Positions 14,506-45,062 of a DNA stretch of 46,639 nt are shown piece after piece. This stretch comes from Deltaproteobacteria bacterium (GTDB taxonomy: Bacteria > Desulfobacterota > Desulfarculia > Adiutricales > Adiutricaceae). The first letter of the stretch is position 1, and each line of letters begins with the position of its first letter. The notes under the pieces were generated by a model. The model worked only from the letters and a program-made list of their open reading frames with translations. It was not told the origin of the DNA and made no database searches. The position numbers and the translations under genes were made by a program. Location of the stretch: NCBI GenBank assembly GCA_031276635.1, contig JAISMU010000104.1:1-46639 (forward strand), read 5' to 3'.

Positions 14506-16743
14506 TTAGTTGATCAGACGTTGGGTTTGGGCCGGTTTATCAGCGGGCGGATTTTCCTCGTTGGGAGGCGAGGCCAGCCGGGAGCTGGCCTCATTCTCCA
14601 GTAAGGCCAAAAGGCTGAGATTGTCAATCTCATTAGAATTGGCGTAACTCATGGAGTCAAACACGGCGGAGAAATCAGAGTGGACCAGAGTGGTTAAACT
14701 CTCCAGGCGTTTCATTTCCCCGTCAGTCAAAGGCTGGCCAGACAGAGGCTCCAAAAAGGCCGCGAATAGTTCCAACCGGCCCGAGTGGCTGAGGGGCCCA
14801 AACTCAACCCGGCGCCCCAGACGTCTTTTGGCGGCGGGGTCAAGATCGGCTATCCTGTTGGTGGTTCCGATAAAAAGCCCGGTGAAATGATCCAGGCAAG
14901 TTAAAAACTCATTGACCAGAGACAACTCGAATGACCGAACGGCCCGATCGCGGTTGTAAATAAACGACTCCACCTCGTCAATGATGACCAGGCCCAGGGC
15001 TAGCTCATACTTTTTAAAAAGTCTGGCCAGATTAATTTCGCTTTCGCCCACGTACGGGGAAATGATGTCCGAGACCCGGGCTCGGGTGATGTCCAGCTCC
15101 AGCTCTTGAGCCAGATAGTTGGCCAACTCCGACTTGCCTGTGCCAGGGGCGCCGTGAAACAACAGTCGCAGGCCACGGCGCTCCTCAACCGGCAGTTGCT
15201 GATTGCGGTCGCGCCAGTTTTTCAGAGAGGGCAGAATTTCGGCCAGGGGCGGATTGGTGACCAGGGTCTCCAACCGGTATTGGGGCGGAACCTTGAGGGG
15301 CCGGGTCTGGCGGCCAGAGAGATCCAGGTGGGCCCTTAATTGTTTTTTGAGCCACAGGTCCGCTTCGCTCGCCGACTCGGGCCGGGCTTCCTTGGTCTTC
15401 TCCAGGGCCTGGGAAATAACGCCGGGGCTGACCTCAAAGTCTTTGGCCAGAAGGCGGGTGGCGTCCTCCGTAATCAGGCTCTCGCCCAATTCGCCCATTT
15501 TTCTCCGCCAGATCCGTAAGCGCGAGTTCGACCCCAGCTTGGAAAATTTCAAGCTGAAGGCGAAGCGCCGGATGACTGAGCTGTTGATGAGCGAGGCGTC
15601 ATTGACGATCCAAAGGCAGGTCGGGCCAGTCTTCTCAAGGAAGTAGTCCAGCCAGCTTTTGTCTGGCGGCGAATCCAGGTTGAGCATTTTGAAGAAAAAA
15701 TTGTTTGATTTTGACTCCAAAAGCTTATCGGCCTCATCAATGATGAGAAGCCGACCGTTCCCCTCCTTTAAATAACTGTGAGCCACGTATAGATTGTTGC
15801 GGTGGCTTTTAGGGTTGTTCCCGGCTTTGACCTCCATGGCTTTGGCCCCGATATCTTGGGCCAGAAATCTGGCCAATTGGGTCTTGCCCACGCCTGGAGG
15901 GCCATAAAATAGGACATGGGTCGGGGTTTTGGAAGGCCCCTGGAGAAGCCTTTTCAGCAATTCCATGGTTTGGCGATCCAGGAAGAAATCACCTTCCCCC
16001 AGAATCGAGGCCGGAGCCGGAGCGAAAGAGTAGAGGCTCTCCGGGGAGTCGGGCAACTCCAAAAGGCGGTAGACGCAGTCATCCAGCTCCGGGCAGCGGT
16101 TGAGACTTTCCGTGATGATATCCAACTTGACGAGCCGACCAGACAGGGACGAGTTGACCTCTGACCGAGACGCGCCCAACAAGGCGGAGAGAATAGGCCT
16201 GTTGACCAGGGTGAAAGACTTCAGCTCACTGTCAATGTAGGAATCCAGGCAACGGTAGGAATCCAGAATATACAAAAGCCTGACCAGACTCAGATCCACC
16301 TCGCCTAAATCCAGCAGATCGGCCAGTTTCGCGAATTTTGTCTCCATGGGCGAGATCAGGGCCTTTTCCTGGATCGACTCAATCCTCTTGACCAGGGCCG
16401 CCAGGAACTTGTCGATTACTCCGTCAGAGAGGCCCTTTTTTTTTCTGAGCTCTCTGACGAAGGCGTGGTCCAGGTCATCACGGTGCGAGTTTGACTCAAT
16501 GATTTCCTCAATGTCCAAGAACTCGACCGACCTGAAAACATCCAGATAGTCATCAAGGCCAAGGCAGATTCTGAGCGCCTCCAGGCAGCTGGAGTCCAGG
16601 ATTCTGGATAACTCCAGGGCTCGGTAGGTGTAAAGGTTAAAGTGGTAGTTGATCCACAAGTTGTCGTCGCTCAAAATGGAGTTGCTCCCGTGGCAACTGT
16701 TTCTGAAGCTGTTTTGGTGCCGAAGAAAGAATGGATTAGTCAT
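14506..16743 (-). CDS. Tandem AAA+ ATPase A (COG0464/SpoVK-like)
   Basis: This 745-residue protein has two AAA+ modules and no known substrate. Residues 1-250 form a helical N-terminal region. D1 has Walker A GPPGVGKT (281-288), Walker B LLIIDEAD (332-339) and Arg392-Arg393 in the finger position. D2 has GAPGTGKS (531-538), SPYVGESE (562-569), LVIIDEVESF (585-594), sensor GTTNR (626-630) and a C-terminal LDPAAKRRLGRR. Both sites look active. The layout matches a broad bacterial group of double-AAA+ proteins, generally uncharacterised. The ATG at 16743 has GAGAGG about 8 nt upstream. There is no adjacent partner gene. A diverged paralog (ATPase B) lies at 36620-38884. There is no signal peptide, so it is cytosolic. 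Confidence 0.85.
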   Translation of the reverse strand: MTNPFFLRHQNSFRNSCHGSNSILSDDNLWINYHFNLYTYRALELSRILDSSCLEALRICLGLDDYLDVFRSVEFLDIEEIIESNSHRDDLDHAFVRELRKKKGLSDGVIDKFLAALVKRIESIQEKALISPMETKFAKLADLLDLGEVDLSLVRLLYILDSYRCLDSYIDSELKSFTLVNRPILSALLGASRSEVNSSLSGRLVKLDIITESLNRCPELDDCVYRLLELPDSPESLYSFAPAPASILGEGDFFLDRQTMELLKRLLQGPSKTPTHVLFYGPPGVGKTQLARFLAQDIGAKAMEVKAGNNPKSHRNNLYVAHSYLKEGNGRLLIIDEADKLLESKSNNFFFKMLNLDSPPDKSWLDYFLEKTGPTCLWIVNDASLINSSVIRRFAFSLKFSKLGSNSRLRIWRRKMGELGESLITEDATRLLAKDFEVSPGVISQALEKTKEARPESASEADLWLKKQLRAHLDLSGRQTRPLKVPPQYRLETLVTNPPLAEILPSLKNWRDRNQQLPVEERRGLRLLFHGAPGTGKSELANYLAQELELDITRARVSDIISPYVGESEINLARLFKKYELALGLVIIDEVESFIYNRDRAVRSFELSLVNEFLTCLDHFTGLFIGTTNRIADLDPAAKRRLGRRVEFGPLSHSGRLELFAAFLEPLSGQPLTDGEMKRLESLTTLVHSDFSAVFDSMSYANSNEIDNLSLLALLENEASSRLASPPNEENPPADKPAQTQRLIN

Positions 16744-33168: not shown

Positions 33169-33603
33169 TCAGGGGTCATTGGGCGGGGGAGATGGAAGGC
33201 AATTGTCGATCTGGCCGTAATTGCGCCGGAATTTCTGAAGTTCTTGACGGGCCCGCTCCAGTTCCTGTCTTAAGGCCCGATTCTCCAAGAGAACCTCCAA
33301 AAGGGTGTCCTTGTCGTTCGACCGGTGATCAACCTCGCTGGAGCTAAGGGGAGTCAACTGACTTTCTTCGGGTGGTTGGGGAACCAACTCCAAAAAAATC
33401 TTGAAATCCTCGTAACCTAAGGCTTTGACCAGAGCCTGTTGGGTTTCTAAGCTCCCAAATGTCCGGCCATTCAAGATGTCATTGATCATGCTTTTGCTGA
33501 CCCCGGATTTTTTGGCAACCTTAGTTTGGCCCCCAAAGCCAAGTTTTTGGATTTCCGATTTGAACGCCAGCGCGAAAGCCCGATCTTTATATCGATTTTT
33601 CAT
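33169..33603 (-). CDS. XRE-family helix-turn-helix regulator with coiled-coil tail
   Basis: A probable DNA-binding repressor of 144 residues. Residues about 10-70 form a Cro/CI-type HTH (QTKVAKKSGVSKSMINDILN with GRTFGSLETQQALVKALGYE). Residues about 100-130 form a coiled coil (LLEVLLENRALRQELERARQ). No peptidase domain is present, so it is not LexA/CI-like in self-cleavage. The start is ATG at 33603. A near-palindromic site 45 nt upstream (33648-33668) could be its own operator. Its spacing and strand suggest association with the WYL regulator and AAA+ block to its right. Target genes are unknown. Confidence 0.75.
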   Translation of the reverse strand: MKNRYKDRAFALAFKSEIQKLGFGGQTKVAKKSGVSKSMINDILNGRTFGSLETQQALVKALGYEDFKIFLELVPQPPEESQLTPLSSSEVDHRSNDKDTLLEVLLENRALRQELERARQELQKFRRNYGQIDNCLPSPPPNDP

Positions 33604-33647
33604 GAATATTTTTTTAGCTCGAAAAAACTAATAGATCAAGAACTTTA

Positions 33648-33668
33648 TTTTCGTAATATACGATAAAA
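33648..33668. promoter_or_regulatory. Putative operator for the XRE regulator
   Basis: The sequence TTTTCGTAATATACGATAAAA is nearly dyad-symmetric around ATA, with core arms CGTA / TACG. It sits 45-65 nt upstream of the regulator's start codon, where autoregulation by XRE proteins is common. Confidence 0.3.
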
Positions 33669-34093
33669 ATCAGAATTTATTTATAATAATACGGCTTTTT
33701 CAGACAAAATATGATATTATCTGGAAATTCAGAAAATTAAGACCAGAAGCTATTCCAAAGATTAATAGAAATATGGGAACTGCGCTTTTTGAAACAGTCT
33801 AATGATACTTATTTTTTCAATAAATTCAATAGGCTAGCCCAAAAAAGTGGTATTTTTTTTTGGCTTAAATCAGTAGAGGCTTTTGAAAAAAAACCCGGGG
33901 GATGGCATTTGAGGGGCTAATCCGCAAGTGGGCTTTTTTTAACGGTTTTTTGTCAACAGTCTGGGGCGAGTTTAAAAATGAGGCTCTCAGATCTGGCTTC
34001 TGGCGTCTGGGCGGGGCATTTAAGAACCGGTGTCAGACTTCCGGTCACCTATTTGGCGCCGACCTTTAGTTATAAATATTAAAAAAACGTATC

Positions 34094-34130
34094 AAAAATT
34101 ATTATAATATTGATAATTATAATAATTTTT
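34094..34130. repeat. 15-bp perfect AT inverted repeat
   Basis: AAAAATTATTATAAT (34094-34108) and ATTATAATAATTTTT (34116-34130) are exact reverse complements with a 7-nt loop. It lies about 240 nt past the stop codon of the WYL gene on that gene's downstream side. Confidence 0.75.
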
Positions 34131-34366
34131 TATATTTTCATTAAACATTAAAATATATATAGTTTACATAATAATTAGATAAAAAAATAAAAAAATTTAC
34201 TCTTAGGCGGGCGGCTGGTAATAGGGCCAAAGCGGGGGGAAATAACGAAAATAATTAGAAAAACATTATTGTTAATAATTTATTAAAGTAAAAATATAAT
34301 ATTTGAATAAAAAGTAATTATAATGTAATAAAATAACGTTCCGTAAAATATAAATTTTGCTGAACG

Positions 34367-35521
34367 TCAAGACTTTTTGAGTCTTCTTTGGCGGGGTTTT
34401 ACCCGGCTCGTTTTAGGCTCCAGTGGTTTGCTCCTGACCGAGAGACCGCACAAATCCCCGATGGCTCTCAGTTCCGCCTCGTAGGCCTCTTTGAGGTGGT
34501 TCGGATGGATGATGGCCACGTCAGAGCCGAAACTTAAAAGCCAGGACAGAGTTTCCCGAAGGTCGCCACAAGGCATTTTTAATTTATACCAGCCTTGAAA
34601 TTTGGTGTTGCGCGACGATCTGATTAGGGTCGGTTTGTTGTTCTCAGGCGAAGGTTTCTCATTTTTGATTTTGGGCCAGGTCCTTTCTTCCAGATAGCCC
34701 CGAAGATGAGGCGCGAAGTTCGCCTCAAGGATAAACTCATCAGTCACTATCATGCCAAAACAATCCCGGCCTTGATGGGGCGAACTCAGATTTTGTTGGG
34801 GAAAATCATCATTTAAGACCGTAACAGTCTTGACCCGGTGGAGAGCCAGGGTGCGTTCCTCGACAGGCTGAAGTTTGTTCCTTTGGATTTTCCTGAGCCT
34901 CCAGCCGTCAATGTAAATCCGGCCCTGGAAATGAGTGAAATGTAAGGGCGCGAAGAATTTGGTCTCGCTTTTTAGGTCATCCCCGCGGGAATAGTCTACT
35001 TCGCAGACCTTCTTATCTTTAATGGCCTTGGAAAAGGATTCGAACCTCTCCTTAAACTCGCTATAGTCGACCTGCCCTTTAAAAATGGTCTCAATCCTGG
35101 GTGAATTAGAGTAGTCTCCACCATTAATCGCGGCTAAAAGCCACTCAAGAATGATTTGGGTGTCTGAGCCCAGGTTCAATTTGGCCAGGGAGGCGATTAA
35201 ATGTTCCTTGGCAGGCTCGTTTTTGGCAAGGATATTGTCCAGGTTGCGCAAGGCCTGGTCCCTGGGTAGATCTTTTTGGAAAACAAGGCGATAGTTTTTG
35301 GCGTTGCCGAAATCGTCATGTTCAACCTTAAGTGGAGCGATGAGCCCTGGTAGCCCATTCTGAATGGTTTGGAAGCAGTCGATAATAGTTTTTTTGTCCC
35401 CAAATTCTCCATCATCTTTGAGGCTAAGATAGTTAACCCCCTGACTGGGAGGGTTGTTAAAGAGCCGGCTCAGGATCCTGAGAATCCTTTCCGCTTTTGT
35501 TCCTTCCGCCGCTTCAGCCAT
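34367..35521 (-). CDS. WYL-domain transcriptional regulator
   Basis: A probable ligand-sensing DNA-binding regulator of 384 residues. The N-terminus (about 1-80) looks like a winged HTH (AERILRILSRLFNN and a second helix pair). The WYL domain (about 165-250) carries FAPLHFTHFQGRIYIDGWRL, where YIDGWRL replaces the canonical WYL strand, and TLALHRVKTV in place of FRLDRI. A C-terminal WCX-like extension includes WLLSFGSDVAIIHPNHLKEA. Proteins of this family often control phage-defence and DNA-damage genes. The ATG at 35521 is preceded by AGAGGA and by a good promoter. It is divergent from AAA+ ATPase B across 1.1 kb of AT-rich DNA. Confidence 0.8.
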   Translation of the reverse strand: MAEAAEGTKAERILRILSRLFNNPPSQGVNYLSLKDDGEFGDKKTIIDCFQTIQNGLPGLIAPLKVEHDDFGNAKNYRLVFQKDLPRDQALRNLDNILAKNEPAKEHLIASLAKLNLGSDTQIILEWLLAAINGGDYSNSPRIETIFKGQVDYSEFKERFESFSKAIKDKKVCEVDYSRGDDLKSETKFFAPLHFTHFQGRIYIDGWRLRKIQRNKLQPVEERTLALHRVKTVTVLNDDFPQQNLSSPHQGRDCFGMIVTDEFILEANFAPHLRGYLEERTWPKIKNEKPSPENNKPTLIRSSRNTKFQGWYKLKMPCGDLRETLSWLLSFGSDVAIIHPNHLKEAYEAELRAIGDLCGLSVRSKPLEPKTSRVKPRQRRLKKS

Positions 35522-36619
35522 AATTATTTTCCTCTAAGGCCCAGACATCTTAACCAGAATTTTTTCCTCAAAGCCAGGAAGCTGAATTAAATATTGAGCC
35601 ATATGATCTGGTCAAGGCTCGAAACTCGCGCGCAGGCGAGAAAAAGTAGAGTTAATCAGATGTTTCCAAAAAATGGAAAATAAAAAAGAATTTAATATCA
35701 CTATAACCCATTGTCCAAGTGTCTTCAACCCCAGAGGACGCTTTATGGCGGGTTTGACTGAAAAATTTCTGGCAATTCTTTTAGGCGGGAGTTTTTGAAA
35801 AAAAAGGAACTTAATTTCAAAATTGAGCCCGAGGTTGGATCTTTATCCAAGAAGATGGTCGCTAGGCTGACCTCTTTTTTTTTGGTTAAGGGATAATTTA
35901 ATATGTATAACATGACTATAAGATACTTAACAATTTTATTAAAATAAATATTCTTATAATATCTATCATGTTATGATTTAATATTTAATTCATAATATAT
36001 ATAATAATATACTTATAAAATAAAATACCATTTAAAATATTTATTTGTTACTAAAGGAATCCATGGCCGAATTATTTTTTATTTAATGTTATATAAATTA
36101 TATAAAATAAAATTTTATTATTGATAATAATATATTATATTAAAATTAATAAGTTAATGAAAATAAATAATAACCATTTAGCAATAATAATTATTATAAA
36201 TCAATTGGAAAGCTAAGATTAAAGAAAAGCGGTTTTTTTGATTGAGTGAATTGACCTCCAGCGGGCTAGTTAAAAAAAGACCATTTACCTCAGAAAGCCT
36301 TGAAACTTATGACTAAAATCAAAATTTTAGATCCTAAAAAAAAAGTCTATTTTTGTAAACTCCTTATCTGGTAAGGCTTTTTAAGAATTAATAATCGCTG
36401 ATAAAAAAATTCAGATCAATGTTGAGCCAGTCAAGAAAATAGGAAAATATCTAATTATTTCATGATGTTACTATAAAAGTAAAAAATTTTTTAGCCTTGA
36501 CCATTTGGCCTGGTTTCCTCCCAAGCGCGCGATAAAATTTAGTCGTTTTGAAGGAACGAAGTCGTTAAGGGCCTTAATTATCAACGTGAGACGTCAGACC
36601 AAAATGATGTCGAACTATA
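35522..36619. other. AT-rich divergent spacer
   Basis: It separates the WYL gene (minus) from AAA+ ATPase B (plus). The WYL promoter lies at its left end. The part from about 35890 to 36200 is almost pure A/T with many short palindromes. No gene was found. Such a long divergent spacer could contain regulator-binding sites. Confidence 0.5.
35586..35615 (-). promoter_or_regulatory. Sigma-70-type promoter of the WYL gene
   Basis: On the minus strand TTGACC (35610-35615), an 18-nt spacer and TTTAAT (35586-35591), each one mismatch from consensus. The start point would be near 35578, giving a leader of about 57 nt. Confidence 0.6.
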
Positions 36620-38884
36620 ATGGTAAAAGGAGAGATCGTGCCTCCGTTAGTAGATCATTTTAATTCTCCCGACAGACCCAAAAAGTCTTTTTTCGGCAAC
36701 ATTTACCGGGACAAAGAGGAAATTCCTTTGGGCATGACCACTCCTCCCATCTTGTTTGAGGACATTTCTTGGCTGAGGCGTTGTACAGCCATCTATCTCA
36801 AAAGGTCTTTTGAGGCTCTTGGCTTCATAGGGTTTCATGGCCTCAGGGCGGCTTTCTATTGCCTTGACAAAGAGATTATTGATGAAATCGTCCTCGGGTT
36901 GGAGAGTGACTCCAAAAAGCGTCGCCGTGTAGGCCCAATAAATTGGTCCGAGGATGACGCCACTGTTAATTTTTACTTAGGCTTATCGAAGCGACCCATG
37001 AGCGTCAGGCTGAGGTTTGGCCAAGAGTTTCTGTCGGTTATTGACGTTTTCGTCAAGGAGATGGCCAATTCATCTTCCTGCGCCTCAGTTGAGTCGCGCC
37101 TTAAGGTCATGGAAGAGACTATGGGATTTTCGCGGAGTGAGAGTGAGTTGTTACGATTATTGATCTGTCTGGACAACGCGGAAACGTTGAAAGATTACTT
37201 TATCCAAGTTCTTTCAGTCTTCAGTTTTAATCAGAGGCCAATTTTAGAAAAAATTCTTGAAAAAACCAAGGAAGAGATTTCTTCGGCCATGAACGGAATA
37301 CTCAACGAGTTGGCTCTCATTGACTCCAGACCAATGCATGAGACCAGTCTCCATCCTTCATTCTATAATATTTTGAATTTTCCCAACGGTGATTATCTTC
37401 GAGACAGTTTCAAGTCTATGGAATCCCCTCGCCTAGGGATCAGGGATTTTTTTGTGAATGATTTGACGGTTGAGATGATCTCTGGTCTCCTCTCGACCGA
37501 ATCAAATTCTCCAACCCATATTCTACTTTACGGGCCAGCTGGAGTCGGAAAAACTCAGTTCGCTAGGACCCTCGCCATGAAATCGGGCCTTTCGGCTTAC
37601 GAAGTCATCCCGGATGATTCGCCATCTGGTTATCGGAGACATTTAGTCATGGCCGATAGTTTCGCCCGCAAGCGGCAAAACTGTTTACTTATCGTTGATG
37701 AGGCCGATGGTCTTTTGGGCGGGGATGGCTTTTGGGCCGACTACGAGGAAAAGGAAGGCTCCAAGAGTTTTTTAGACTATTTTATGGAAAAACCAGGCTC
37801 CCGTTGTCTCTGGATCGCCAATGAGGTGGACGGTCTGCCTGAGTCGGTTATGCGTCGTTTTGCCTTTTCTCTGGCCTTTCCTCGGATGGGGCATAAAGCG
37901 AGAAGGAAGGTCTGGTTGACCGTTCGGAAAGATCTGGCGGGCCTGGGCTCTGATCTTCTGTCGGACCAGACTTTGGAGAAATTGGCTCGGGAAGAAGATC
38001 TCTCTCCAGCCATTATCGCCCAGGCTTTCCAGAAAAGCTTGGAGGCAGGGGCGGACTCTGAAGAAAAGTTGATCGCTTATATGAGGCGGCAGTTACGGGC
38101 TCACCAGGAGCTGTCCGGGATTCCGTCGAGCTCGTTTCGGGTAGCCGCCGGATATTGCCCGGCGGCGGTGACCTCCACACCCTCGCTCGCGGAGCTTAAG
38201 CGGATTCTGGAAGCCTGGAAAAAAGGTTCCCACGATAGCCTTGATGGCCAGACGGGCCTTGGGTTTCTTTTCCACGGACCCCAAGGCGTGGGCAAGAAAG
38301 CTCTCGCGCTTAATCTGGCCGAGGAGCTGGATCTTGAGATCATTCGCGTTCGGCCATTTGACCTTATGTCCAACAAACGCGAATTTTCGGAATACGTCTT
38401 TTCCTATTTTTTGGAGAGGGCCGTGGCTCTCCGAGGCATTTTGCTTTTTGAGAAAATTGACTACTTTTGGGAGGATGAGCGCGGTCAGGGGGAAAATAAT
38501 GAAAAGCTGTTTTTTGAGGTGATTTTGAACCGTCTCGATAGGTTCGCGGGAGTTTTTATCGCCACCAGTGGGCGGTCCCAAGTTACAAATATTTCATTTC
38601 CCTCTCCCTTTACTCTTGAAGTGGAGTTCGGCGGCCTCAAGGCTACCGGTCGAGAGGAGCTCTTTTCAACCATTCTGCGGCCCCTCTCCAAAAGGTCCTT
38701 GACCGCGGCGGAAAGAGAGCGGCTTTTGGCTATCCCGAGCTTGGTCCCCGCTGATTTTGTCGCCACGGCGACAAAGGCCAGATGGCGAGGACCGGAGAGC
38801 TCTGACAATTTTTCGCTTCTGGAGGCCATGTCTCTTGAGGCCTCTCATCGGCCAGGGTCAACTGGATCCAAGCCTTCGCTTTGA
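36620..38884 (+). CDS. Tandem AAA+ ATPase B with degenerate second domain
   Basis: A 754-residue paralog of ATPase A (14506-16743). The N-terminal helical region spans about 1-275. D1 is intact: GPAGVGKT (305-312), LLIVDEAD (356-363) and Arg412-Arg413. D2 appears dead: GPQGVGKK (553-560) has Lys instead of Ser/Thr, Walker B is LLFEK (608-612) without the Asp-Glu pair, the SPYVGESE segment is lost, sensor TTN has become TSG (649-651), and the finger arginines are gone. The substrate is unknown. The start could be ATG 36620 or GTG 36638; the latter has AAAAGGAG 5 nt upstream, while TATAAT overlaps the ATG. Two tandem unknown genes follow at 39049 and 39791, probably cotranscribed. Confidence 0.82.
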   Translation: MVKGEIVPPLVDHFNSPDRPKKSFFGNIYRDKEEIPLGMTTPPILFEDISWLRRCTAIYLKRSFEALGFIGFHGLRAAFYCLDKEIIDEIVLGLESDSKKRRRVGPINWSEDDATVNFYLGLSKRPMSVRLRFGQEFLSVIDVFVKEMANSSSCASVESRLKVMEETMGFSRSESELLRLLICLDNAETLKDYFIQVLSVFSFNQRPILEKILEKTKEEISSAMNGILNELALIDSRPMHETSLHPSFYNILNFPNGDYLRDSFKSMESPRLGIRDFFVNDLTVEMISGLLSTESNSPTHILLYGPAGVGKTQFARTLAMKSGLSAYEVIPDDSPSGYRRHLVMADSFARKRQNCLLIVDEADGLLGGDGFWADYEEKEGSKSFLDYFMEKPGSRCLWIANEVDGLPESVMRRFAFSLAFPRMGHKARRKVWLTVRKDLAGLGSDLLSDQTLEKLAREEDLSPAIIAQAFQKSLEAGADSEEKLIAYMRRQLRAHQELSGIPSSSFRVAAGYCPAAVTSTPSLAELKRILEAWKKGSHDSLDGQTGLGFLFHGPQGVGKKALALNLAEELDLEIIRVRPFDLMSNKREFSEYVFSYFLERAVALRGILLFEKIDYFWEDERGQGENNEKLFFEVILNRLDRFAGVFIATSGRSQVTNISFPSPFTLEVEFGGLKATGREELFSTILRPLSKRSLTAAERERLLAIPSLVPADFVATATKARWRGPESSDNFSLLEAMSLEASHRPGSTGSKPSL

Positions 38885-39048
38885 GCCGCTTGAGGCCAGG
38901 CTGGTTAGCCTAAAGAGACCAGAGAGACGCCGATACTTCTGGAAAAAGTCGACGCTAGACCTATTTTACCAGGCCGCGCCTTTTCTTGGCGCGACCGGCC
39001 ATAACCCAAGACGCCATCCGCGTCTAAACTAACTGAGGAGAAAATACG

Positions 39049-39687
39049 ATGAGTTGGAAAAACAACCCCAGGGAAATCCTGGAGCAGGCGCAGCGGGCCC
39101 AGAACACTTTGGCCGAATTCAACCATTGTCTGGGAGTCAGCCTTTACAGCCTCGCGGATTCGCTCAAACTGCGACCCTGGTTTTGGGAGCCAGCGTTGGA
39201 TGAGGTGTCTATCACCGCGACCATACCCGTGACTTTACGGCCGGTTTGGTCTTTGTCTGGAACCGGGCTTCTGCCCCTGTCAAATTTCCGGCAAATTTTC
39301 GCGACGCGCGACCCCCTTTCTGAGCCACCTACCCTGGGAAAAGTGATCCTGGTGGCTCACGTCGCCCTGAATCGGGCTTTGGTAGGTGTTGAGGTTAAGC
39401 CTGATAACCCGGAAGCGGTCTTTCAGTTGGACCCTGGCCCAGCCCTTTTGCGGATCCATCTGTACAAGGTGGTTAAGAACGCCTCTAGAAGATGCGACAC
39501 TCTTGAGTATCTTTGGTATGAGACCGCCGAGTACGGGGAAACGCCTGGTTGGGCTGACTCTGGGGTCAAAGAGATGGCGGTTTGGCGAGGCGATTTCGAT
39601 CTGGCCAGATTTCTGGTTGAGCCAGAAGAGGTAGCCCAGGCGATTCAGGAACGCCTCAGTGAGAATATTCCGAACCCGGTCAATTGA
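39049..39687 (+). CDS. Uncharacterised protein, first of a tandem paralog pair
   Basis: A 212-residue soluble protein that I do not recognise. It starts MSWKNNPREILEQAQRAQN (amphipathic helix), then has LRPWFWEPALDEV, SGTGLLPLS, IFATRDPLS, a hydrophobic VILVAHVALNRAL, DPGPALLRIHLYKV and a conserved VWRGDFDLARFL near the end. About half the positions match the next gene by eye, and the Trp/Phe/Pro-rich WFWEPA and WRGDFDLA segments are preserved. There is no signal peptide or membrane segment. The ATG at 39049 has GAGGAG 8 nt upstream. It lies 164 nt after AAA+ ATPase B; a hairpin (GGCCGCGCC / GGCGCG) in that gap could modulate readthrough. Confidence 0.75.
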   Translation: MSWKNNPREILEQAQRAQNTLAEFNHCLGVSLYSLADSLKLRPWFWEPALDEVSITATIPVTLRPVWSLSGTGLLPLSNFRQIFATRDPLSEPPTLGKVILVAHVALNRALVGVEVKPDNPEAVFQLDPGPALLRIHLYKVVKNASRRCDTLEYLWYETAEYGETPGWADSGVKEMAVWRGDFDLARFLVEPEEVAQAIQERLSENIPNPVN

Positions 39688-39790
39688 CTTTTGTCTTTGA
39701 GGGATTTTCCGACGCGTCCTTTGGCGGTCGCGTCGCCTCAATAATCAGAGGGCTCCTGGAGACGCCCAAAATCAATTAAGGAGAAATCCA

Positions 39791-40429
39791 ATGAGTTTTT
39801 TAAACAATCCCGACCAGGCTCTGGCCGAGGCTCAGAAAGCCCAGAACGTCATAGCTGAGTGTAATTATCTTCTGGCTCAAGGGCTGAAGACCATGGCGGC
39901 CACGCTGGACCTGCAACCATGGTTTTGGGAACCCGCGGTCAATGAGGTGCCCCAAGATGACCTTTTTCCTTTGACTATAAGGCCCGTGGGATTTCTTACC
40001 GGAACTGGCTATCTGCCTCTGTCAGACTCCCGACATATTTTCGCGACTCGCAACCCGCTCGCCGTCTCGCCCAGAGTGGGGGACGCGATTTTGGTCGCGC
40101 ACGCTGTTTTTAACCTGGCCCTGGAGGATCTTGATATGGAGGAGCTCGAGGACTTGGAGGCTGTTTTCCGACTCAAGCCTGGCCCGGCTCTTCTTCGCGT
40201 CCATCTCTATAAGGTAAGCCAGGCCGCCCCAGATTACGCGACGCTTGAGGACCTCTGGAACGATACCGCTGATTACGGGGAAGAGCCTGGTTGGGACCAG
40301 TCCGGGACCGAGGCGATGCGGGTCTGGCGAGGCGATTTCGATTTGGCCGAGTTCCTCTGCGATCCGAAAGTTTTGGCCGAGGCGGTCAAAGGACGCTTGG
40401 CCGAGGAGATCCCGGCGTCTGTTTTGTAA
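39791..40429 (+). CDS. Uncharacterised protein, second of a tandem paralog pair
   Basis: 212 residues, the same length as the preceding gene and clearly its paralog: MSFLNNPDQALAEAQKAQNV, LQPWFWEPAVNEV, TGTGYLPLSDSRHIFATRNP, ILVAHAVFNLALEDL, KPGPALLRVHLYKV and VWRGDFDLAEFL align throughout with one two-residue gap. It is more acidic than its partner. The ATG at 39791 has AAGGAG 7 nt upstream, 103 nt after the first copy. A bidirectional terminator closes the unit. It is probably cytosolic. The function is unknown; association with AAA+ ATPase B (substrate, adaptor or effector) is inferred from position only. Confidence 0.75.
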   Translation: MSFLNNPDQALAEAQKAQNVIAECNYLLAQGLKTMAATLDLQPWFWEPAVNEVPQDDLFPLTIRPVGFLTGTGYLPLSDSRHIFATRNPLAVSPRVGDAILVAHAVFNLALEDLDMEELEDLEAVFRLKPGPALLRVHLYKVSQAAPDYATLEDLWNDTADYGEEPGWDQSGTEAMRVWRGDFDLAEFLCDPKVLAEAVKGRLAEEIPASVL

Positions 40430-40566
40430 TTTTCGCGGAAAAGGCTGTTTGGCGGACCCTCCCCAAGGAGGCGTCCGCTCAAGAACTTGAAAGCTCAGAT
40501 CAGCGGCCTTGGGCGCCAGTCAGAGCTCCGTTAGCGGAATTACGCGCGGGTTTTTCTTAAGAGCGA

Positions 40567-40608
40567 AAAGGCCAGAAACCGCCCCTGGTAACTGGCCTTT
40601 ATTTTATC
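40567..40608. terminator. Bidirectional intrinsic terminator
   Basis: Perfect 9-bp arms AAAGGCCAG (40567-40575) / CTGGCCTTT (40592-40600), followed on the plus strand by ATTTTAT and on the minus strand by TTTTCGC. It lies between the convergent ends of the tandem-paralog unit and the glutamate-synthase-domain gene. Confidence 0.8.
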
Positions 40609-40622
40609 GCTTAACCGGGGAT

Positions 40623-42263
40623 TTAGAATTTTTCCCGCAGAATGTTTTTGGCTGTCTCATCGCCCAGCTCGGTGACAAACGGCAGCCCGGTCTCTTTGGC
40701 CGTCTCCCGGTTGGCGGCGGCGATGTCGTAGCGGTCAATGGCCGAGAGCTTAAATTTTCTAGCCCCGGCCATCAGCTGCTGGAGACCGGCGGAGAGCTTA
40801 TCCAGCATACCCCACATGGCGATGGCCCCGTAGGGGATTTCCTTCATGGCTTTGGCCCCGACCTTTTTCTGGACATCGTAGTAGGCGGCGAAGATCTCCT
40901 CCGCCGTGGAACCGTGGGCGCTGACCGAAGCCGGCAGGCTGTCCCAGTTGCCGTTGACTTTTGCCTTGTTGGCCGGCTTCAAGACTCCCTCAATGTTGGA
41001 GCCCAGGAAGCCCGGGATCATCAAACCCCGGCCCATGCAGATGAGCTTAACGAACGGGGAGCCAAGAGCCAGGCCCTTAAAGATGGAGCTGGACTTGGCG
41101 AAGCCGCCGGCGAAGGAAATGTCCACCACCTTGTGTCCGGCGGCGGCCAGGATGTTGGCGTACTCGTAAGCCTTGGCGTGGAGAAGGATCGAGGGGACTC
41201 CCCAGTGTTCCATCATGTCCCAGGGGCTCATGCCCGTGCCCCCGCCGGCTCCGTCAATGGTGAGCAGATCCAAGCCAGCCTCGGTGGCCAGCCGGAGAGC
41301 CAGAGCCAGGGGCTCCATGCCATAAGCCCCGGTTTTCAGGGAGATGCGCTCGTATCCCAGCCCCCGGAGATACTTGACCTGCTTGAGGAAATTTTCCCGC
41401 ACCTCCCCCCATGAGGAGAGGTTGGTGTAGCCCAGGCGACTGTGGCGGGCGAAACCGTCAATGGAGTGGTTTTTGTAGGCCTCGCGCACCTCGGCCTTGG
41501 AGCAGTCCGGGTCCACCAGGTAGCCGCGGTTTTTGAGGAAGTCGGCGTACTCAATATCCTTGACTTGGATCTCGCCCCCGATGTTTTTGGCTCCCTGGCC
41601 CCATTTCAGCTCAATGATAACCTTATCGCCATATTTTTCAGCGATGTATTCGGCCACCCCGTTTCTGGTGTCCTCAACGTTAAGCTGAACAATGGCCGCC
41701 CCATAACCATCGTGGTAGCGGAGATAGGAGTCCAGTCGGCGATCCATTTCCGGGCTTTTGACAATGCGGGATTTTTTAATCTCCGAAGCCCGGTCAACGC
41801 CAACCACGTTTTCGCCGATGACGATGGGGATACCGCAGATGGCGCAACCGGCGGCCATGGCGTCCCAATACTTGGCGGCGATGAAGGTGGAGCCCAGAGC
41901 CCCGGCCATGTAGGGAGCCCGACACTTGGTTATTTTCTTGGCCCCGAAGCTGGTCTCCAGGGACACTTCCGTGAATAGGGCGTCTCCCTTGGCCGCGGAA
42001 GGAGGAGCCTCATGAGCGCCGTAGCAGGGCCCCATGATTCTGAGGGCGTTGTAGGAAAGCCCGGCCGGGGCGGTGTTCTGGGCCCCGGCCACGGTGGAGC
42101 CGAAGTCCCGGGGGTAAAGAAGCTCCCGGCCTTTGAGGCAGGAGGCCCAAACCTCGCAGCGACCCTGGCAGTCGGAGCGACACAGGGTACAAAGCCCTGA
42201 TTCCGCTGGGTTACCGCGATTGGCGATACCCAAGGCGTCATTGGATTTCTGATAGGTGGTCAT
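40623..42263 (-). CDS. Glutamate synthase FMN-domain protein (GltB central-domain family)
   Basis: A 546-residue flavoprotein with only the FMN-binding (beta/alpha)8 domain of glutamate synthase. Landmarks are SYNALRIMGPCYGAHEAPPS, the ELKWGQGAKNIGGEI substrate region, LLTIDGAGGGTGMSPWDMME and FAGGFAKSSSIFKGLALGSP. An N-terminal cluster of cysteines (Cys25, 28, 32, 36, 42) suggests an iron-sulfur site. The glutaminase domain is absent, and the 3Fe-4S CHxNxCPxG motif after the FMN site is replaced by MGRGLMIPGF. It may use ferredoxin-type electrons or catalyse a different amination or oxidation. The ATG at 42263 has AAGGAG about 11 nt upstream. No small subunit gene is nearby. Confidence 0.85.
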   Translation of the reverse strand: MTTYQKSNDALGIANRGNPAESGLCTLCRSDCQGRCEVWASCLKGRELLYPRDFGSTVAGAQNTAPAGLSYNALRIMGPCYGAHEAPPSAAKGDALFTEVSLETSFGAKKITKCRAPYMAGALGSTFIAAKYWDAMAAGCAICGIPIVIGENVVGVDRASEIKKSRIVKSPEMDRRLDSYLRYHDGYGAAIVQLNVEDTRNGVAEYIAEKYGDKVIIELKWGQGAKNIGGEIQVKDIEYADFLKNRGYLVDPDCSKAEVREAYKNHSIDGFARHSRLGYTNLSSWGEVRENFLKQVKYLRGLGYERISLKTGAYGMEPLALALRLATEAGLDLLTIDGAGGGTGMSPWDMMEHWGVPSILLHAKAYEYANILAAAGHKVVDISFAGGFAKSSSIFKGLALGSPFVKLICMGRGLMIPGFLGSNIEGVLKPANKAKVNGNWDSLPASVSAHGSTAEEIFAAYYDVQKKVGAKAMKEIPYGAIAMWGMLDKLSAGLQQLMAGARKFKLSAIDRYDIAAANRETAKETGLPFVTELGDETAKNILREKF

Positions 42264-43553: not shown

Positions 43554-45062
43554 ATGGGCGATTTGAGGTTTGATGACGTGGTCCGTCTTATTGTCAAGAC
43601 CGGGCGGCTGCCAGAGTGTTTCGAGGATTGGGGCCTTTTGGATGATAGCGGCCTGACGATAGCTCACATCGCGGCGCGGGAAGGGTGTTTGCCCTCAGAC
43701 TTTGACCGTTGGAAGCTGGCTGACCAAAGAGGCTGGACCGTAGCTCATGAGGCCGCGCAAAATTGGCGTCTGCCGGTCGATTTTGCCCGCTGGGAAATGG
43801 CGGATAAAAACGGCTGTACCGTGGCCCACGTAGCGGCCTGTAGAGGTCTTTTGCCCGCTGATTTTTCCCAATGGGAATTGACTGATGAAAAAGGCTATAC
43901 CGTGGCCCATTACGTCGCCTTGGGAGGTCGTTTGCCAACGGATTTTTCCCAATGGGAACTGGCTGACAAAGGAGGCTGTACCGTAGCCCATGTCGCCGCT
44001 AAAAATGGTTTTCTCCCCGAGGATTTTGATAATTGGTCTCTGGCTGATGAAAATGGCTGTACCGTGGCCCATGCCGCGGCTAAAAATGGACGCCTCCCCA
44101 AAAACTTCACCCGGTGGGATTTAACCGACAGCTATGGTCGAACGGTGGCTCATGTCGCGGCGATAAACGGACGCCTCCCCAAAACCTTCACCCGGTTGGA
44201 TTTGGCTGACCTTGATGGTCTAACGGTGGCTCATTACTTGGCGGGGGAAGATCGTTTGCCCTCTGATTTTTCCCAATGGGAATTGGCGGGCAACCAAGGC
44301 CAGACTGTGGCCCATTTCGCTGCTGAAAGTGGGTTTCTCCCGGATGGTTTTGACAAGTGGTCTCTGGCTGATAAAAATGGCAGAACCGTGGCCCATGTCG
44401 CGGCGATCCATGGTTATTTGCCAGAGGGTTTTGACAAATGGTCTCTGGTTGATGGAAGAGGCGAGACCGTGGCTCAGGTCGCCGCGAACAGTGGGAGGCT
44501 CCCCAAAAATTTCGCCAAATGGCATTTGGCCGATCACAGCGGTCAGACCATGGCCCACTACGCCGCCAGGCAAGGGCGGTTGCCGGAGAATTTTAGCCAA
44601 TGGGGACTAAAAGGCGGCAATGAGGGCCAGACCGTCGCTCATGCCGCGGCGGAAAATGGGTTTCTGCCTGAGGAATTTGACAGCTGGGAGCTGGTTGATG
44701 AGGAGGGCCGAACGGTGGCCCATGTCGCGGCGGAAAATGGGTTTTTGCCTGAGGGCTTCGACCGCTGGGAATTAGCCGACAAAAAAGGCCGGACCGTGGC
44801 TAGTTACGCCGTCAAGGCGGGCCGTCTGCCGTCCGGCTTTGACCGATGGGATCTGCCAGACGAAAATGGCCGGACCTTGGCTCACGTCGCCGCGGCCCAC
44901 CGGCGCTTGCCGAAAGATTTTGACAGCTGGGACCTGGCTGATGACGAGGGCTGGACCGTCGCGCATGAGGCGGCGAAACATGGTTTTTTGCCAAGAGGTT
45001 TCAGCAAGTGGGATCTGGAGGACAACCGAGGGGTAACTGTCGCGGACGTGGCCAGATACTAA
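43554..45062 (+). CDS. Ankyrin-like 27-residue repeat protein
   Basis: A 502-residue protein made almost entirely of 17 tandem repeats of 27 residues, with partial units at both ends. The consensus is GxTVAHVAAxxGxLPxxFxxWxLADxx. The TVAHVAAxxG half matches the first helix of an ankyrin repeat (TPLHxAAxxG). The second half, LPxxFxxWxLAD, is shorter than the usual 33-residue unit and carries an invariant-looking Trp. One unit carries a single inserted residue (near LKGGNEGQ). There is no signal peptide or membrane segment. The ATG at 43554 follows AAAGGA by about 9 nt. Ankyrin-type proteins in host-associated bacteria often bind host or partner proteins; that role is only a suggestion here. 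Confidence 0.88.
   Translation: MGDLRFDDVVRLIVKTGRLPECFEDWGLLDDSGLTIAHIAAREGCLPSDFDRWKLADQRGWTVAHEAAQNWRLPVDFARWEMADKNGCTVAHVAACRGLLPADFSQWELTDEKGYTVAHYVALGGRLPTDFSQWELADKGGCTVAHVAAKNGFLPEDFDNWSLADENGCTVAHAAAKNGRLPKNFTRWDLTDSYGRTVAHVAAINGRLPKTFTRLDLADLDGLTVAHYLAGEDRLPSDFSQWELAGNQGQTVAHFAAESGFLPDGFDKWSLADKNGRTVAHVAAIHGYLPEGFDKWSLVDGRGETVAQVAANSGRLPKNFAKWHLADHSGQTMAHYAARQGRLPENFSQWGLKGGNEGQTVAHAAAENGFLPEEFDSWELVDEEGRTVAHVAAENGFLPEGFDRWELADKKGRTVASYAVKAGRLPSGFDRWDLPDENGRTLAHVAAAHRRLPKDFDSWDLADDEGWTVAHEAAKHGFLPRGFSKWDLEDNRGVTVADVARY
43650..45029 (+). repeat. 81-bp coding tandem repeat array (17 units)
   Basis: The DNA of the repeat protein is periodic at 81 bp with one 84-bp unit (460 codons for 17 units). 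Units are diverged at the DNA level, so the array is old rather than freshly expanded. Adjacent units near 44090-44200 are more similar to one another, suggesting a more recent local duplication. Confidence 0.8.

Follow-up and report, generated by a model that had tools for sequence, protein, structure and literature searches.

A block of four genes lies in the window (the whole stretch of 46,639 nucleotides of DNA analysed here). A transcription regulator with WYL and WCX domains is divergent from genes for a tandem AAA+ ATPase, AAA_B, and two small paralogs, P1 and P2. An XRE regulator flanks the block on the left and a glutamate-synthase-like gene on the right. The five open reading frames (ORFs) called from XRE to P2 in the initial annotation are all real genes, with exactly the coordinates and strands given there, and the Pfam matches of three of them (HTH_3, WYL with WCX, and AAA) all exceed the curated cut-offs. 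The features are as follows.

33169..33603, minus strand: XRE regulator, HTH_3; left flank, outside the block; orthologs adjoin the glutamate-synthase-like gene in relatives.
33848..40560, no strand: accessory insert of approximately 6.7 kb with WYL, AAA_B, P1 and P2; borders approximate, from the gap in DNA similarity.
34367..35521, minus strand: WYL-WCX transcription regulator, 384 residues, divergent from the ATPase operon (Pfam, PADLOC, orthologs).
35522..36619, no strand: AT-rich spacer between the divergent WYL and AAA_B genes, presumably their common promoter/operator region (composition, motif search).
36620..38884, plus strand: AAA_B, Cdc48/Rix7-like tandem AAA+ ATPase, 754 residues; D1 intact, D2 degenerate (Pfam AAA 1e-19, profile, fold, motifs, tree).
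39049..39687, plus strand: P1, PDC-M15B-like, 212 residues (PADLOC PDC-M15B, E = 1.2e-11; AF2 model).
39791..40429, plus strand: P2, PDC-M15B-like paralog of P1, 212 residues (PADLOC PDC-M15B, E = 1.4e-10).
40570..40597, no strand: terminator hairpin of bidirectional type, probably that of the flanking gene.
40623..42263, minus strand: glutamate-synthase-like gene, named from its sequence rather than by family search; right flank, outside the block.

Comparison of related sequences demonstrates an insertion at a conserved site. XRE orthologs of 47–54% identity lie next to the glutamate-synthase-like gene in four genomes of the same genus (G001, G002, G005 and G006), and the latter gene is 89–92% identical in all six other genus members. 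DNA similarity between the window and four same-genus genomes spans XRE and its upstream region, ends at or before 33847, and restarts at 40621–40642. In a fifth genome of the genus (G004), tolB and the glutamate-synthase-like gene are adjacent with a 0.4 kb gap and no XRE. The block is missing at the orthologous site in G001, G002, G005 and G006, as expected of an accessory island. Given the adjacency of XRE and the glutamate-synthase-like gene in relatives and the gap in similarity, approximately 6.7 kb containing WYL, AAA_B, P1 and P2 has been inserted, and XRE, initially counted as part of the block, is ruled out as a member: it is a resident of the flank in four relatives. GC content at third codon positions is 0.55–0.64 in the block versus 0.70–0.77 in tolB, bamA, glt and AAA_A, although that of the flanking XRE gene is also low (0.58). 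The bidirectional terminator described as closing the unit exists as a hairpin (arms GGCCAG, 40570–40575, and CTGGCC, 40592–40597, between A and T runs), but it probably belongs to the glutamate-synthase-like gene, because an equivalent hairpin adjoins that gene in relatives without the block. The AT islands placed at the flanks are likewise real (33.5–34.5 and 35.5–36.5 kb, minimum 21% GC), but most of their length falls within the block, in the spaces separating its genes. A search for a hidden RNA gene gave no Rfam match.

The region beyond the glutamate-synthase-like gene is possibly a variable site. The window encodes a 502-residue protein there (43554–45062, plus strand), which consists almost wholly of ankyrin-like repeats, whereas three relatives have a large AAA+ protein (L180:5076–7544, L181:4687–7287 and L182:10019–11998). 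The large AAA+ protein of G001 at this site matches the BrxL C-terminus and DolB.

The WYL gene product matches Pfam WYL (2e-5) and WCX (1e-9) and the PADLOC WYL model (3e-19). The helix–turn–helix region was sought by Pfam, which gave no hit in residues 1–159. Orthologs of this regulator adjoin homologous AAA+ genes at three loci (L046, L049 and L050). Ribosome-binding sites precede WYL, P1 and P2. An 11-mer, AGCCTTGACCA, is found in the same orientation upstream of both WYL and AAA_B, a weak signal equalled in 83 of 2000 shuffles.

AAA_B is placed with Cdc48, p97 and Rix7, its best Protein Data Bank (PDB) matches by profile and by fold. Its translation may truly start at GTG 36638, an alternative start that follows AGGAG. 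The N-terminal region is helical in the predicted model and unmatched to the p97 N domain; the alignment for this second structure model held proteins of the window and of related loci only. The initial description of a diverged tandem ATPase is accurate. The first ring, D1, has a complete set of motifs (GPAGVGKT, IVDEAD, a sensor 1 N and RRF), and in D2 the corresponding motifs have decayed to GPQGVGKK, FEKID and SGRS, the RR finger is gone, and SNKREFSE replaces the YVGESE pore loop. With Walker, sensor, arginine-finger and pore-loop residues lost, the second ring looks dead. Three tandem AAA+ proteins of G017, located beside a WYL ortholog, are also D2-decayed, and in the tree they form one clade with AAA_B that comprises two genera (support 100/99). 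D2 is still intact in the P-associated ATPases of G003, G005 and G012, which makes the decay a later event in this group. The genome has three tandem AAA+ copies; the two besides AAA_B belong to a separate clade without P or WYL.

The C-terminal tail of the family has also been lost from AAA_B. A tail of the form [ILVM]GF ends 51 of 96 AAA+ proteins versus 9 of 1782 other ORFs, in a survey that covers the tandem AAA+ proteins in L056, L058, L060, L062, L067, L075–L111 and L133–L151; in much of the window's family a hydrophobic-Asn end replaces it. The likeness of an IGF tail to the ClpX loop, as a ClpP-docking motif, we take to be a mere resemblance. A second tandem AAA+ gene of the window (14506–16743, minus strand) has intact D1 and D2 and neither WYL nor P beside it; it occupies the same place in G002, at about 56% identity. 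Other arrangements of the family include an array in G001 (L054:7671–15948) in which three tandem AAA+ genes are intact and a fourth is broken. Small basic proteins with the motif MSRSxRKxP are encoded next to tandem AAA+ genes (L056:1549–2100 and 2375–2998, L059:1982–2305); the two that were scanned have no Pfam family.

P1 and P2 are tandem 212-residue paralogs, as first described, with 54% identity and no more copies in the genome. Neither has a significant family in Pfam, NCBIfam or PHROGs. Their family was initially given as unknown; profile search assigns both to a catalogued candidate, PDC-M15B (PDLC04461, PADLOC; E of order 1e-11 and 1e-10), which all ten aligned members of the P family match, and they are thus homologs of a proposed defence protein. 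According to papers that use them, the PDCs are candidates recognised by their embedding in defence loci, most of them without validation (PMC12988326, PMC11811056). The AF2 model of P1 (pLDDT 74.7, pTM 0.74), built on an alignment of rows from the relatives' genome loci and the window's own proteins, consists of a long N-terminal helix and then a mostly beta portion. It has no match at E < 0.001 in the PDB or BFVD, so that a known fold was rejected, and structure searches gave P1 no recognised fold or active site. A sequence search for homologs of P with solved structures also gave none. Few residues are conserved across the P family and no catalytic pattern is evident; a binding or sensor protein therefore fits better than an enzyme. 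A phage origin was considered and rejected for P, which is absent from viral contigs, with no Pseudomonadota M15B in phage records, and for AAA_B, which has a single weak phage AAA+ hit.

Tandem small paralogs with a divergent regulator, inserted at a variable site, also recall a toxin–immunity or addiction unit, in which a P1–P2 pair under AAA_B and WYL control would be kept for its own persistence; the four similar M15B copies of G005 would suit such a unit. P1 and P2 nevertheless resemble each other, unlike a toxin and its antitoxin, and no toxin family or fold was detected, which makes this explanation very unlikely.

Conservation of the gene linkage is clear from sequence comparison across the phylum. 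M15B homologs were sought by sequence in 60 related genomes and their loci retrieved; a wider search of 395 genomes of the phylum added one strong match (G216) and one weak (G133). A tandem AAA+ gene lies within 4 kb of M15B in all seven informative loci (the window, G003, G005, two in G012, G019 and G216), which upholds the initial proposal that the ATPase and the paralogs belong together. A WYL gene is also present in three of the seven, the window, G005 and G012:C291. Gene order varies. G003 has AAA+ followed by two M15B genes; G012:C291 has AAA+, M15B and WYL; G012:C171 has two M15B within one ORF and then an AAA+ start; G019 has AAA+ fragments, M15B and AAA+; G005 has AAA+, two WYL and four M15B; and G216 has AAA+, a 217-residue gene, M15A and M15B in one run. 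In the P–P ORF of L047 the second copy has a ribosome-binding site before it, so this ORF may have arisen by loss of a stop codon and not be a true fusion. In G017, AAA+ genes occur with WYL, and M15B ends are found only at contig edges, one of them facing BREX brxL and pglZ. Two contig starts that bear these ends share 119 bases, and neither can be joined to the triple-AAA+ contig.

The second PDC-M15 component, M15A, has the pattern EPD...VEAK (EPDVILEFENIDVIVEAK and relatives), as in PD-(D/E)XK nucleases. It has no Pfam match, and the motif suggests a PD-(D/E)XK-nuclease-like protein. M15B is uncommon in Pseudomonadota (1 of 399 genomes), where its partner is M15A and no AAA+ gene accompanies the pair. 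Such pairs occur on an Ochrobactrum plasmid, within a type I restriction operon of a Vibrio rumoiensis plasmid, and in G622 behind putative hsdM, hsdS and hsdR genes, named from their sequences. Paralog homologs thus do exist without an AAA+ neighbour, the finding that the initial annotation had named as evidence against its proposal, and in Pseudomonadota M15A is the partner instead. In G029 and G036, M15A is present with neither AAA+ nor M15B nearby. M15A is the only likely catalytic effector of the system and is absent from the genome of the window: the PADLOC model gave no match in the genome, and a local M15A profile gave none in the window.

The absence of M15A, the decay of D2 and the lost C-terminal family tail of AAA_B might together mark a decaying remnant that stopped working once M15A and D2 catalysis were gone. 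However, each of the four ORFs is intact, the D1 motifs are complete, and the D2-decayed form has been kept in four proteins of one clade in two genera; decay of the whole unit is highly improbable.

The link between the ATPase and the WYL regulator extends well beyond these loci. An AAA+ alignment was used to search named genomes, and tandem AAA+ genes were found in Thermodesulfobacteriota, Synergistota, Treponema, Fibrobacter, Pseudomonadota and others. A WYL gene lies within 2.5 kb in 14 of 35 loci across phyla, often overlapping or directly behind the ATPase gene. Near AAA+ there are 14 WYL genes in 154 kb, versus one in 324 kb farther away (P = 1.4e-6 under a uniform model), so that the initially noted WYL–ATPase association is both confirmed and widespread. 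The defence-island layout that had been suggested is also seen elsewhere: several homologous loci adjoin known or candidate defence genes, namely type I restriction–modification (twice), BREX pglZ/brxL and PDC-S26. At L078, two ORFs beside an AAA+/WYL pair jointly match PDC-S26 (1579–2913). Overall, the links of the ATPase to the paralogs and to WYL stand, and XRE membership and the orphan status of the paralogs do not.

P and WYL are both missing from the neighbourhood of many AAA+ genes of this family, and the ATPase may therefore serve more widely in house-keeping or stress. WYL proteins regulate non-defence genes too. The block could accordingly be read as a stress or proteostasis module, a Cdc48-like protein remodeller that is controlled by WYL and reacts to stress such as DNA damage. 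P1 and P2 would then be its adaptors for substrates, and the defence-gene link would reflect shared accessory sites only. The Cdc48/Rix7-like profile and fold of AAA_B and the three tandem AAA+ copies in the genome are in keeping with such a role. Against it, M15B, a defence candidate, accompanies M15A beside type I restriction–modification genes and also lies beside BREX; the block is an accessory insert; and the pore loop and catalysis required of a threading motor are gone from AAA_B D2. We regard this explanation as unlikely.

A defence function is reasonably likely: WYL–AAA_B–P1–P2 appears to be an accessory, candidate anti-phage module. Since related bacteria carry the same parts together, the block probably represents a novel form of a candidate defence system, one without its usual nuclease-like partner. 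The best reading is an M15A-less variant of PADLOC PDC-M15 coupled to a Cdc48-like ATPase. The surveyed papers report no phage-stopping member of PDC-M15 or of the AAA+ family of AAA_B. A possible mechanism is as follows. (i) The WYL protein would repress the divergent AAA_B–P1–P2 operon, in the manner of known WYL regulators. (ii) A nucleic-acid-type ligand would relieve repression during infection, as proposed for BrxR. (iii) P1 and P2 would function as a pair, as their recurrent tandem copies, once in one ORF, suggest. (iv) They would bind AAA_B as sensor or adaptor subunits, a partnership suggested by gene position. (v) ATP hydrolysis by D1 would switch or remodel the AAA_B–P1–P2 assembly. 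(vi) The role of D2 would be that of a structural platform, not of a threading motor. Any exact order of these events is doubtful.

More broadly, and tentatively, tandem Cdc48-like AAA+ genes adjacent to WYL regulators may constitute a widespread class of bacterial defence systems, as yet without a name, that are regulated and have interchangeable partner genes. In the clade of the window, D2 would be a dead platform, and M15B, without the nuclease-like partner, would provide the specificity subunits. The analysis ties PDC-M15B, an untested candidate, to one particular ATPase family and to a WYL regulator; what was an orphan gene pair thereby becomes a machine that experiments can probe. If the proposal is true, bacterial immunity gains a Cdc48-like double-ring AAA+ protein, and one ring and the nuclease-like partner, both lost naturally, are seen to be dispensable.

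Four known systems serve for comparison. Repression of defence operons is established for BrxR-type WYL regulators, and 48% of the homologues of BrxR are co-localized with known defence systems (PMC9122601; see PMC9122588 for CapW/BrxR). Like BrxR and CapW, the WYL protein of the block has WYL and WCX domains and is divergent from a candidate defence operon; it differs in that Pfam detects no N-terminal helix–turn–helix, the neighbouring operon is neither BREX nor CBASS, and the operator is putative. IetA of IetAS is the best PADLOC match of the AAA+ family (AAA_B 6e-13, relatives to about 1e-34). The 374-residue IetA model has one AAA domain, whereas AAA_B has two, and AAA_B scores 41 bits with NF042959, far below the NCBIfam cut-off of 510. 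For the serine protease IetS, no further gene of that size lies between XRE and the glutamate-synthase-like gene. AAA_B shares two classical-clade AAA domains with Cdc48, p97 and Rix7, but its D2 lacks the active site and the aromatic-Gly pore loop, and its C-terminal tail differs. The fourth system is PDC-M15. P1, P2 and their relatives match component B, and G216, a relative from outside the family, combines AAA+, the 217-residue gene, M15A and M15B. None of the scanned AAA+ proteins matched any PDC-M15 model, and the genome of the window differs from PDC-M15 in that component A is absent and component B occurs in duplicate, in association with a tandem AAA+ ATPase and a WYL regulator.
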